64,000 bases of DNA from Clostridiales bacterium. Its GTDB lineage: Bacteria; Bacillota; Clostridia; Saccharofermentanales; Saccharofermentanaceae. This document shows positions 48,238 through 53,923 of this stretch, piece by piece. The position numbers were made by a program, and so were the translations under genes. Below the pieces are notes generated by a model that was not told where the DNA came from, made no database searches, and saw nothing but the letters and a program-made list of their open reading frames with translations. Each line of letters begins with the position of its first letter. Position 1 is the first letter of the stretch. The DNA lies in NCBI GenBank assembly GCA_017550385.1, contig JAFZPJ010000052.1:53684-117683 (forward strand), in the 5' to 3' direction.

Positions 48238-48311
48238 TGCCGAATGGTGTAACGGTAGCACATCGGCCTCTGACACCGCTAGTCAAGGTTCGAATCCTTG
48301 TTCGGCAGCCA
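48238..48311 (+). tRNA. tRNA-Gln (anticodon CTG)
   Basis: The 7-bp acceptor stem TGCCGAA/TTCGGCA is perfect, the T arm CAAGG-TTCGAAT-CCTTG is canonical, and CCA is encoded (48309-48311). The anticodon loop is CTCTGAC, giving anticodon CTG for the Gln codon CAG. The anticodon stem is weak: TCGGC facing ACCGC gives only three standard pairs, with mismatches at 27-43 and 31-39. A terminator starts four bases after the CCA. It is probably functional but unusual in this stem. Confidence 0.88.
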
Positions 48312-48314
48312 AGC

Positions 48315-48353
48315 AAACCGCAGATTCCTTATGGAGTTTGCGGTTTTTTATTG
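48315..48353 (+). terminator. Terminator after tRNA-Gln, also the left 39-bp direct repeat
   Basis: AAACCGCAGATTCC (48315-48328) pairs with the 14 bases at 48333-48346, with wobbles, and runs into T6. The 39 bases from 48315 to 48353 are repeated exactly at 53571-53609. Confidence 0.88.
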
Positions 48354-48356
48354 ATC

Positions 48357-48469
48357 TGTTCCATTTTCAGTAGCGGTTTTGCCGTTTTCACTACTATAAA
48401 TACTATTATTTGACCGATAGTAGTTTCTGCAGTAGTGTTTTTGATGCTTTTGGAACGCAAAACGGAACA
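48357..48469 (+). repeat. 113-bp dispersed repeat, copy B
   Basis: It runs from TGTTCC to GGAACA with terminal inverted repeats. Inside are GCGG...CCG and ACTACT/AGTAGT half-sites in alternating direction. It is the same length as copies A, C and D and follows the tRNA terminator directly. Confidence 0.88.
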
Positions 48470-48545: not shown

Positions 48546-49262
48546 ATGCTGAAGTGCACGATCTGTGATGACAACTCACAGACAGTATCCGATATTCATG
48601 ATATGATCTGCCGGCTGTTTCCGGACAGGTTTGTATACAAGTTTGCATTTGGAACTGATGATTTTGAGGATAATGATTGCGCTGACTGCGATGTGTTGAT
48701 CATAGATATCGATCTTGATAATTCTGACGGAGTGGATTCCGGCGGAATAGAGATCGCGGGCAGGATCAAAGAGAATAAGCCGGATGTTCAGGTCATCTTT
48801 GTAAGTGCTTTTCATGAATATGCGCAGGATATCTTCAGAGCTGATCCGGTGTACTATCTCCAGAAACCGGTCTCGGAATCCAAACTTAAAGTGGCTGTGG
48901 ATAAAGCCCTGTCAGTGTTGGAACACGATCATAATGACAAGTTTACGTATGTATCCGGATCGGATATAGTCAGCATCCCAATGCGTGAGATCCTGTTTTT
49001 CGAAAGTGACAAAAGACGGATGAATGCTGTTACTAACGGTAATAAGCAAAGCTTTTATTCGCGGGTCAAGGATGTTGAGACCGAACTCGATGACAGGTTT
49101 ATCAGATGTCATCAGAGCTTCATAGTTAATATGGATCACGTGAGCAGCATGAGGAAGGACAACCTTTTGCTGGATGACGGAAGCGCGGTGCCGGTCAGTC
49201 AGTCCAGACGCAAAGAGGTCCGTATTGCTCTGACTAAGCATCTTGGCAGGAAGCTGGTATGA
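48546..49262 (+). CDS. LytTR-type response regulator (AgrA-like)
   Basis: The 238-residue protein has a receiver domain with acidic D8/D9 (ICDDN), phospho-acceptor D54 (VLIIDIDLD) and the Lys in YLQKPV, then a LytTR DNA-binding domain (about 140-238: EILFFESDKRRMN, RCHQSFIVNMDHV). LytTR regulators bind paired 9-bp direct repeats. ATG 48546 follows GAGGG; an upstream in-frame ATG lies further away. It is AT-rich, overlaps the next gene by four bases (ATGA), and a half-site AAATGTTATTA lies at 48503-48513, so self-control is possible. Confidence 0.93.
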   Translation: MLKCTICDDNSQTVSDIHDMICRLFPDRFVYKFAFGTDDFEDNDCADCDVLIIDIDLDNSDGVDSGGIEIAGRIKENKPDVQVIFVSAFHEYAQDIFRADPVYYLQKPVSESKLKVAVDKALSVLEHDHNDKFTYVSGSDIVSIPMREILFFESDKRRMNAVTNGNKQSFYSRVKDVETELDDRFIRCHQSFIVNMDHVSSMRKDNLLLDDGSAVPVSQSRRKEVRIALTKHLGRKLV

Positions 49263-50170
49263 ACAAGCCTTATTTAAGAAGAGAAGGAACTAGAACGCTC
49301 TTAATTCCCATCCTGATCTTTGCTCTGTTCATAATGATGCAGATGATCTATGTCTTTCTGCTCCTTGCCCGAAGTTCCGAAGTAAGCATAATGCACTCCA
49401 TGGCTGCCAGTATCGGAGCGTTGGTATTCAACACTGCGGTCAATATCCTCTTTATCCGTTATATCTATGACAGCAACAGACTCTATGAAAGGCAGAAAGA
49501 GGAAGAATTAAAGGCGAATCTTGAACACCTTGATAAGAAGTATTTCGAGATCATGGATAAGGAATTAGCAGAATCCCGTGAGATCAATGCCGGGTTGTTA
49601 AAGCATATAGAAGAAATCAGGGCGAGTATCGAGACGGGAGAACTGAACTCAAAGGCGGTGCCTGTCGACAAGATAAGCGAGAGCATAGAAGGACTACGCA
49701 GTCTCAGGTTCTGTGAAGACCCTACGGTGGACATGGTCCTGACACTCAAAAAGAACAGGGCGGACAGGGAATCGATTCCGATGAATACAAAGGCCGTGGT
49801 TCCATCCGATACAGGCATAGCTGAATTGGATCTGTCATCTGCGGTCTCCAATCTTATTGATAATGCGATAGAAGCTGCGTTATGCGTTAAGGAAGCAGGC
49901 AAAGACGCTTATGTTAATGTCAATATTTCCATGAAGGGTAAGATGCTCATAATAAGGACTGAAAACCCAACATTATCGGATGTGACAGTTGACAGCATCG
50001 AAGATCTGAGAACGACCAAGACCGATATCCCGGGATCACACGGTTACGGACTGAAGATACTACAGGCTATTGCCGGAAGATACGACGGAGAACTCACCGT
50101 TGATATGAAGGACCATATATCTGTTTTTACTATGATGCTGAACTGCAGACGCAGGGAGAATGCAAGATGA
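49259..50170 (+). CDS. GHKL-type histidine kinase subunit lacking the phospho-acceptor histidine
   Basis: The 303-residue protein has two membrane segments (about 13-36 and 45-68), a coiled linker and a C-terminal GHKL ATPase domain (N-box NLIDNAIEAAL at 198-208, and HGYGLKI). It resembles AgrC-type kinases but its dimerisation region reads REINAGLLKHIEEI where such kinases have FRHDYKNHL; the phospho-acceptor position is Ala (about 111), and the only His (116) fits the second His of that motif. It could bind ATP and phosphorylate a partner in trans. The overlap with the next gene (ATGA) suggests co-translation. Confidence 0.88.
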   Translation: MNKPYLRREGTRTLLIPILIFALFIMMQMIYVFLLLARSSEVSIMHSMAASIGALVFNTAVNILFIRYIYDSNRLYERQKEEELKANLEHLDKKYFEIMDKELAESREINAGLLKHIEEIRASIETGELNSKAVPVDKISESIEGLRSLRFCEDPTVDMVLTLKKNRADRESIPMNTKAVVPSDTGIAELDLSSAVSNLIDNAIEAALCVKEAGKDAYVNVNISMKGKMLIIRTENPTLSDVTVDSIEDLRTTKTDIPGSHGYGLKILQAIAGRYDGELTVDMKDHISVFTMMLNCRRRENAR

Positions 50171-51012
50171 ATCCTGTCTGGAGTATTATCGAGGGTACGA
50201 TACTCGGATTCGTAGTGATCTATTCGCTGCTTGGTGTCATTGACAAAAAGAGATTTCCAGACTGGTTAAGCTATGTTATAGGAATCACCCTGAGCGTCTT
50301 AAGCGGGCTGAATAACACTTTTGTAAGCGTCATCGATCCGACTGTGTTCTTCTTCGGTTCGTTCATCTTTATGTTTTTTGTCTTCAGCAAAGACCGGATC
50401 GCCAAAAGGATCATCACCTTTGTCGTATTTATAGTTACTACGGTAGCAATAGAGATCACCACTGAAGCTATGGCTGTAGTGATGGGGATCCCACCGGATG
50501 GTTATGATATCTATGTAGAACTGTTCAGATCATATTCGACGATATTTCTTTGCGATGCTTTCCTGATAGAAGTGCTGATATACAGGAGCAGGAAGATTAC
50601 AAAACCAGTATTCCCCATAATGATACTTCTGACTATACCGGTCTTGATGTTGATCTATACATTATCGATCGTTCTGGATAAGGGTGATCATAACGGATTC
50701 ATATTGACCCGGACGGCAGTCACAGCCGGTGTGATCAATATCGCTTTTGTGGTCTTGTTCATTGCGTATATGAGAGTCAGCAAAAGAGTGCAGGCATTAA
50801 GACAAGAAAAAGAACTGATGCAGCAAAATGCGGTGTATGACAAAGACTATTATGAACTGGTTCAAAAAGAGATCAACGGATCGCGTTTTATCAGACACGA
50901 TGTCGTGAATTACATAGAACAGATAAAGACCTTAACGAAAAAGGGAGATAACGAGTCTTTGGAATTGGCAGTTAAGATATCAACCGAATTGGAAGAAAGG
51001 CTCAAAGAATAG
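50167..51012 (+). CDS. Histidine kinase-like membrane sensor with H-box but no ATPase domain
   Basis: The 281-residue protein has six or seven hydrophobic segments (about residues 5-200), like AgrC-type sensors, a short coiled linker, and then SRFIRHDVVNYIEQIKTL with the phospho-acceptor His244. It ends 37 residues later, before any N or G box. It is thus the mirror image of the previous gene product, and together they would make one complete kinase. The stop is genuine: non-coding DNA with a LytTR-like site follows. It is AT-rich and shares the operon with the regulator. Confidence 0.85.
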   Translation: MNPVWSIIEGTILGFVVIYSLLGVIDKKRFPDWLSYVIGITLSVLSGLNNTFVSVIDPTVFFFGSFIFMFFVFSKDRIAKRIITFVVFIVTTVAIEITTEAMAVVMGIPPDGYDIYVELFRSYSTIFLCDAFLIEVLIYRSRKITKPVFPIMILLTIPVLMLIYTLSIVLDKGDHNGFILTRTAVTAGVINIAFVVLFIAYMRVSKRVQALRQEKELMQQNAVYDKDYYELVQKEINGSRFIRHDVVNYIEQIKTLTKKGDNESLELAVKISTELEERLKE

Positions 51013-53570: not shown

Positions 53571-53609
53571 AAACCGCAGATTCCTTATGGAGTTTGCGGT
53601 TTTTTATTG
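53571..53609 (+). repeat. Right 39-bp direct repeat of the island, also a terminator
   Basis: These 39 bases are identical to 48315-48353, after tRNA-Gln. They fold as a hairpin with T6 and end the lipoprotein message. The two copies bracket about 5.2 kb of AT-rich genes. Confidence 0.9.
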
Positions 53610-53758: not shown

Positions 53759-53810
53759 ACCCGCCGGAATGACGCAGATTCCTCTCGGAATTTGGTGTTT
53801 TTTATTGATC

Positions 53811-53923
53811 TGTTCCAATTGCAGTAGCGGTTTTGCCGTTTTCGCTACTACAAACGCAACTATTCGCCCGGCAGTAGTTTTCTCAGTAGTGTTTTTGATG
53901 TTTCCGGAACCAAAAATGGAACA
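53811..53923 (+). repeat. 113-bp dispersed repeat, copy C
   Basis: Exactly 113 bp from TGTTCC to GGAACA, closely matching copy B. Both are preceded by a small hairpin and the bases TTTTTTATTGATC. Confidence 0.88.

Follow-up and report, generated by a model that had tools for sequence, protein, structure and literature searches.

A putative AgrC-like histidine kinase divided between two co-encoded proteins in a rumen bacterium and its relatives

Histidine kinases are usually treated as homodimers, with sensor, phospho-acceptor and engine in one chain. A locus of a rumen bacterium raises the question of whether these parts can be divided between two membrane proteins. In the 64,000-nucleotide stretch of DNA that was analysed (hereafter the window), ORF calling places three genes at positions 48546-51012: a LytTR response regulator (RR) and two kinase-like genes, HK1 and HK2. 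A first-pass annotation had proposed that the latter encode complementary halves of an AgrC-like kinase, one without the acceptor His and the other without the ATPase domain, which together with the regulator make one complete signalling chain.

Two genes with complementary losses

The three genes, and all features within them given below, lie on the forward strand. ATGA overlaps join RR to HK1 and HK1 to HK2, in the window as well as in two operons of a congener (genome G031), and ORFs confirm the gene positions and the HK1/HK2 overlap that had been annotated. RR (48546-49262) has a LytTR domain and a receiver domain (Pfam LytTR, 9.9e-22; Response_reg, 8.2e-10); its start is the ATG at 48546, and the mechanical ORF opens earlier, at GTG 48489. 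The receiver alignment shows that its phospho-acceptor Asp is retained (motif LIIDIDL). By profile and alignment, the kinase pair is thus accompanied by an adjacent LytTR regulator with its acceptor, the third member of the proposed chain.

HK1 (49259-50170, 303 aa) is the ATPase subunit, with two membrane spans, a coiled coil, a DHp region without acceptor His and an intact GHKL ATPase domain. Residues 188-294 match PF14501 (GHKL, HATPase_c_5 type; E 3.8e-17), and profile match and alignment place the domain at 49820-50140, with the motifs NLIDNA and HGYGLK. In the coil and pseudo-DHp (49469-49708), Ala111 (codon GCC, 49589-49591) stands at the site of the acceptor His, and Lys at that of the Asn of HDxxN. 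HK2 (50167-51012, 281 aa) is the sensor/His subunit, with a multi-span sensor, a coil and an RHDVVN box. By alignment, its coil and DHp hairpin (50782-51009) form the protein's end; the His244 codon is at 50896-50898 and the stop codon follows 37 residues past this His. His244 aligns with Ala111 of HK1 (IRHDVVNY against INAGLLKH). HK1 thus has NAG where RHD is expected, HK2 has RHD and no ATPase domain, and neither combines the two in a single chain as AgrC-type kinases do; acceptor His and ATPase lie on separate polypeptides, which by domain content makes the pair a candidate split kinase in the CheA3/CheA4 sense.

On these central points the first-pass annotation was right: alignment finds no intact H-box in HK1, and neither ORFs nor Pfam reveal a full ATPase domain beyond a frameshift in HK2. 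Its description of the HK1 membrane segments needs correction in extent, given that segments are present and only two hydrophobic spans remain. The HK1 proteins of G031 are 449 aa long and carry the full sensor; hence, window HK1 has lost its N-terminal sensor, a loss that had gone unremarked.

A sequencing error or frameshift was considered for the window pair and rejected. A public rumen contig (L074), which differs at 2 positions over 8354 nt, has identical reading frames, and both G031 operons have the same layout, their four HK2 and HK3 genes ending 36-37 residues after their His. Because L074 may represent the same genome or a sibling, its independent support against a frameshift is weak.

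HK2 has no PF14501 match, its Pfam scan gave nothing above the curated cut-off and no ATPase match at E 1, and an NCBIfam scan gave no match at E 1, so that sensor/His subunits of this kind are easily missed. A search of solved structures with HK1 returned nothing at E 0.01. With a profile of 13 His subunits, the search returned 14 sequences in total: 12 pentatricopeptide or alpha-solenoid chains, one rhodopsin and, as a weak match, the AgrC kinase module 6e52 (E 0.012). The 12 pentatricopeptide or alpha-solenoid matches (best E 8.7e-11) were taken as chance, given that no single stretch passes alone.

The two genes 3' of HK2 encode a protein with a weak zinc-ribbon match (below cut-off) and one with a solute-binding domain, and their link to the kinase pair is not evident. 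An exact 39-nt terminator-like repeat lies at 48315-48353, directly after tRNA-Gln (48238-48311), and again 5.26 kb downstream at 53571-53609; a second direct repeat (151 nt at 82%) is found at 48319-48469 and 53773-53923. Given that direct repeats flank the segment from the kinase cassette to the second gene after it, this segment looks as if inserted or excisable.

Conservation in the genus and recurrence in other lineages

G031 has two contigs with an operon of the order RR - HK1 - HK2 - HK3, each encoding one ATPase protein without His and two sensor/His proteins. The HK1 proteins have the ATPase domain and Lys or Gln in place of the acceptor His, and HK2 and HK3, at about 280-290 aa, are of the sensor/His kind and have no ATPase. 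In a tree of sensor plus DHp, HK1 (3 rows), HK2 (3) and HK3 (2) form one clade each with bootstrap 100; hence, the split predates the three operons. The eight ordinary relatives in that tree have His and ATPase together, and a regulator adjoins all of them (six by profile, two by eye in ORF listings). Between the window and G031, HK1 identity is 64-65% in the ATPase region, 68-71% in the coil and 30-32% in the pseudo-DHp, its least conserved part; for HK2 it is 65% in the H-box and 35-36% in the sensor. We left out dN/dS for most of these comparisons because synonymous divergence is saturated. Short sensor/His frames occur in 2 of 85 genomes of the window's genus (G000 and G031; E 1e-5), and a search of 188 genomes of the order (E 1e-8) added no others. 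HK3 was searched for elsewhere in the window's genome, which is 85% complete, and not found.

Near one of the G031 split operons (L090 6513-7199, G031:C215) is a second LytTR protein, without acceptor Asp (LIITGIK) or receiver match, followed downstream by a WXG100 gene and a PP2C gene. An AgrB gene (PF04647) lies beside an ordinary AgrC-like kinase of this genome (L025 3111-3701, G031:C172). Inspection by eye of the ORF listings, rather than a systematic search, showed no AgrB-like protein near the window locus or either split operon of G031.

The wider census covered 391 genomes of the class and 398 of the phylum, plus the families of genomes with matches. No single query covered all genomes, and the number of split systems is therefore a lower bound from which we claim no overall frequency. 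Nine further places were examined among the matches listed for the class, and five places of more than 100 match rows for the phylum. Both parts are held by at least 11 genomes, with G585 included under the reservation that its HK1 keeps the His. The pair is thus conserved in one congener and recurs in three other lineages, and in related operons two or three His subunits often accompany each ATPase subunit; this and the sensor loss of HK1 go beyond what had been annotated. Each part lacks what its partner holds in the window, both G031 operons, G441, G586, G595, G243 and G1007 with its three congeners; the exception is G585. By Pfam, an ATPase match was found in 0 of 11 sensor/His proteins scanned and HATPase in 8 of 8 ATPase proteins.

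Gene order varies among the lineages. G586 and G441 have sensor/His - RR - ATPase/no-His, the ATPase protein having two spans and Asp in place of His; the regulator frame is intact in G586 and broken in G441. G586 also has an AgrB gene (PF04647, E 1e-21; L142 7724-8308), which lies about 1.6 kb from HK1 and adjoins an ordinary kinase. In G595, three sensor/His genes in tandem are followed by an aldolase gene, by the gene for a 443 aa ATPase protein whose acceptor site has Asp, and then by a regulator, which was found beside HK1 by profile scan and runs to the edge of the examined stretch. Two of the tandem genes (L139 3256-5950) agree at 860 of the 894 nt aligned, which suggests that the sensor subunit was recently amplified. 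G585 has two sensor/His genes and RR together with an ATPase protein; the latter was read across two overlapping contigs and retains the His, with the following Asp changed to Arg. G243 has RR - ATPase/no-His (Arg at the site) - sensor/His, and its ATPase domain contains a long Ala/Gly-rich insertion and matches only PF14501 profile positions 1-25.

G1007, from another class of the phylum, has RR - ATPase/no-His (Gln, two spans) followed by two sensor/His genes. Its congeners G1123, G1125 and G1126 retain RR and HK1, with two operon sensor/His genes in G1123 and one each in G1126 and G1125. The last two each have a further DHp tail away from the operon, about 77-81% identical to the split sensor/His tails: in G1125 a 74-aa frame on another contig (L240 3243-3464), and in G1126 within a 221-residue open frame about 6.5 kb off (L238 3072-3320). 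G408 has two tandem sensor/His genes, and no ATPase/no-His partner was found; of its four candidate matches, the three that were opened all keep RHD. Beside these genes (L106 5374-6086), the regulator's receiver and LytTR-like parts lie in two overlapping frames.

Several candidates were set aside. The short-frame candidates in G354, G473, G433, G221, G304, G406, G784 and G532 turned out to be ordinary kinases whose His and ATPase share a frame, as did second loci in G274 and G1007, and a G791 kinase spread over several frames was not counted. Nor were the kinases of G274 (312 + 116 aa) and G1028 (272 + 154 aa), which are cut in the DHp-ATPase linker with no loss of His and may represent either a frameshift or a different form of split. 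These LytTR-linked, linker-cut kinases (L144 3182-4473 and L226 3176-4452) come from single-contig genomes, and an AgrB gene lies beside the L226 one.

Repeated origin and retained motifs

In a tree of the last spans and DHp (53 rows), the ATPase/no-His label changes 4 times relative to sensor/His rows, as forced by the starred branches (bootstrap range 4-5), and a single clade of the 9 ATPase rows is rejected by the AU test (p-AU 3.6e-70). A tree of the ATPase domain (32 rows, without G1007) gives 4 changes against all other rows, 3 of them forced. Lineage by lineage, the ATPase rows group with the local sensor/His rows. The label count by itself cannot separate gain from loss; given that repeated regain of a lost acceptor His is unlikely, we infer from the trees that the ATPase/no-His form arose at least four separate times. 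Both trees are to be read with their long branches in mind, including G1007_HK1 and G595_HK1, and the grouping was defined only once the pattern was known. Support for joining G1007 HK1 with just its own partners is weak (89/55), and reaches 98/91 with two ordinary kinases included. The trees leave aside G1123, G1125, G1126, the third G595 subunit and most of the ordinary kinases found.

The retained residues differ between the two kinds of subunit. All 16 sensor/His rows have His, Asp at +1 and Asn at +4, whereas the 9 ATPase rows have His in 1, Asp or Glu at +1 in 6 and Asn or Thr at +4 in 1. The 28 comparison rows, two of which (G274a and G1028a) have no ATPase in the same frame, have His in 28 and Asn or Thr at +4 in 22. 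When 13 sensor/His proteins from three lineages are aligned, five columns are invariant, and three of these are the His, Asp and Asn of HDxxN. For possible split kinases of the bifunctional kind, HE/DxxN/T has been named as the motif for phosphatase activity (PMC3591291).

Where it could be measured, dN/dS is below 1 on both sides of the split: 0.15-0.20 for the ATPase subunit and 0.13-0.19 for the sensor/His subunit of G441/G586, 0.15-0.30 for the ATPase subunits of the G1007 genus, and 0.31-0.43 between two G595 sensor/His paralogues. An ordinary kinase adjoining the G441/G586 set is lower, at 0.07-0.11 against 0.13-0.20 for the split subunits. Four comparisons between different sensor/His subunits of the G1007 genus show protein identity of 30-45% in the sensors and of 80-92% in a 66-residue coil-plus-DHp stretch, whose DNA identity is 84-95%, a pattern that fits sensors exchanged on a kept tail, or tail conversion. 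Sensor against coil-plus-DHp identity is 73% against 89% in G595, 50% against 62% in G585 and 56% against 74% in G408. For HK2 and HK3 of G031 both are low (20-23% against 35-47%); hence, constant tails are not universal.

Proposed mechanism, rival explanations and known systems

We consider it probable that a single heteromeric kinase is made of HK1 and HK2, and that HK2 is phosphorylated in trans by HK1. Beside the reciprocal loss, co-encoding, conservation and recurrence described above, complex formation and phosphotransfer are what we infer. An AgrC-like kinase would have been duplicated, followed by reciprocal loss. By sequence, HK2 retains the full membrane sensor, the coil and the DHp with His244 and HDxxN and has no ATPase domain, and HK1 retains the last two spans, the coil and an intact ATPase domain and is missing most of the sensor as well as the acceptor His and the Asn of HDxxN. 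Coils and DHp helices would hold the two together, a signal detected by HK2 would lead the HK1 ATPase domain to phosphorylate His244, and the phosphate would pass to the acceptor Asp of the LytTR regulator, the first gene of the operon. HK2 may also dephosphorylate the regulator via HDxxN. Reciprocal retention and loss, dN/dS below 1 where measurable and at least four tree positions support such a heteromer. AgrC autophosphorylation is itself described as taking place between two monomers, and a truncated AgrC with TM5-6 and the cytoplasmic part, which two-span window HK1 resembles, is reported to keep autokinase activity (PMC3841183). We count against the heteromer the His of G585 HK1, the insertion in G243, the partner not found in G408, the rarity in the genus (2 of 85), the higher dN/dS than in an ordinary kinase, the dN/dS of the two G595 paralogues and the low tail identity of HK2 and HK3 in G031.

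Three other explanations were weighed. HK2 could be a membrane phosphotransferase or phosphatase like Spo0B that serves other kinases, with HK1 a regulator that no longer phosphorylates. HK2 does retain HDxxN, and the SPOB_a profile matches two G1007 sensor/His proteins above cut-off, with matches below cut-off in G595 and G585 and none by Pfam in window HK2; SPOB_a also covers DHp domains in ordinary kinases. There are also reports of clostridial phosphotransfer proteins that act as phosphatases (PMC11210211). Such a protein would not, however, need a partner, and in at least four separate lineages an ATPase/no-His protein comes together with a His/no-ATPase paralogue; the ATPase-domain motifs are kept in all 11 both-part genomes, with dN/dS of 0.15-0.30 where measurable, and we regard the Spo0B-like explanation as unlikely.

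Less probable still is a decaying locus, in which HK1 lost His and sensor, HK2 was truncated and neither functions. The sensor loss of window HK1 relative to G031 and the rarity of the layout in the genus would agree with decay, but each half retains its own motif in two G031 operons, the frames are intact with ATGA overlaps, dN/dS is well below 1 in other lineages and the form has at least four separate tree positions. Equally improbable is a heteromer of HK1 and HK2 in which HK1 does not serve as donor for HK2 and instead acts on other homodimeric kinases as an inhibitor or decoy, as RetS does on GacS. Inhibitory kinase heterodimers are described in the literature (PMC12189002), yet HK2 without its own ATPase needs a donor, of which the co-encoded HK1 is the nearest, and HK1 retains its ATP-binding motifs.

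If HK1 phosphorylates HK2 in trans, one ATPase subunit serving several sensor/His subunits, as with HK3 and the tandem HK2 genes, would let several signals converge on one regulator. We lean slightly towards a broader reading, in which these are recurrent and convergent modular membrane kinases, made of a dead-DHp catalytic subunit and a changeable set of sensor/His subunits, their sensors drifting apart or being exchanged on a constant DHp tail that has to fit the catalytic subunit and the regulator. A bacterium could then change its inputs with kinase and output untouched. Judged from sequence, sensing and acceptance seem to have been separated from ATP use repeatedly in AgrC-like kinases of related bacteria. 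Such systems would give natural, obligatory heteromers for direct study of trans-phosphorylation and multi-sensor integration. Bifunctional split kinases have been modelled as able to give ultrasensitivity and bistability (PMC3591291), and this predicted switch-like behaviour would become testable in them.

The closest known parallel is CheA3/CheA4 of Rhodobacter sphaeroides, in which acceptor His and ATPase are likewise on different proteins, described as active only when mixed (PMC3591291). That pair works in chemotaxis, has a P1 phosphorylation domain and is found in a cytoplasmic cluster (PMC3591291), whereas the window system is a membrane AgrC-type kinase with DHp helices, a LytTR regulator and, in its relatives, often several sensor/His subunits. 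With AgrC/AgrA of Staphylococcus aureus (an HPK10 kinase) it shares the PF14501 GHKL domain, the weak DHp match to 6e52, the LytTR regulator and the multi-span sensor; AgrC, however, has His and ATPase in the same polypeptide. Hik36/Hik43 (PilL-N/PilL-C) of Synechocystis is a described split histidine kinase with interaction in a bacterial two-hybrid assay, and differs in being a CheA homologue, encoded at distant positions, rather than an AgrC-type membrane sensor (PMC7656254). HisKA proteins without HATPase, 1556 of 42417 in SMART, also have the His domain without ATPase, but belong to another DHp family and are given as a database count that names no partners in the passage cited (PMC3591291), whereas the window's partner is co-encoded and His-less. 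Among the matches listed in the literature searched, none describes a split AgrC/LytTR kinase, its repeated origin or a layout of one engine with several sensors. Split kinases as a kind (CheA3/CheA4, Hik36/Hik43) and HisKA proteins without ATPase are already known (PMC3591291, PMC7656254), and what is new here is that the form is a membrane AgrC/LytTR one, that it has a repeated origin and that one engine is combined with several sensors.
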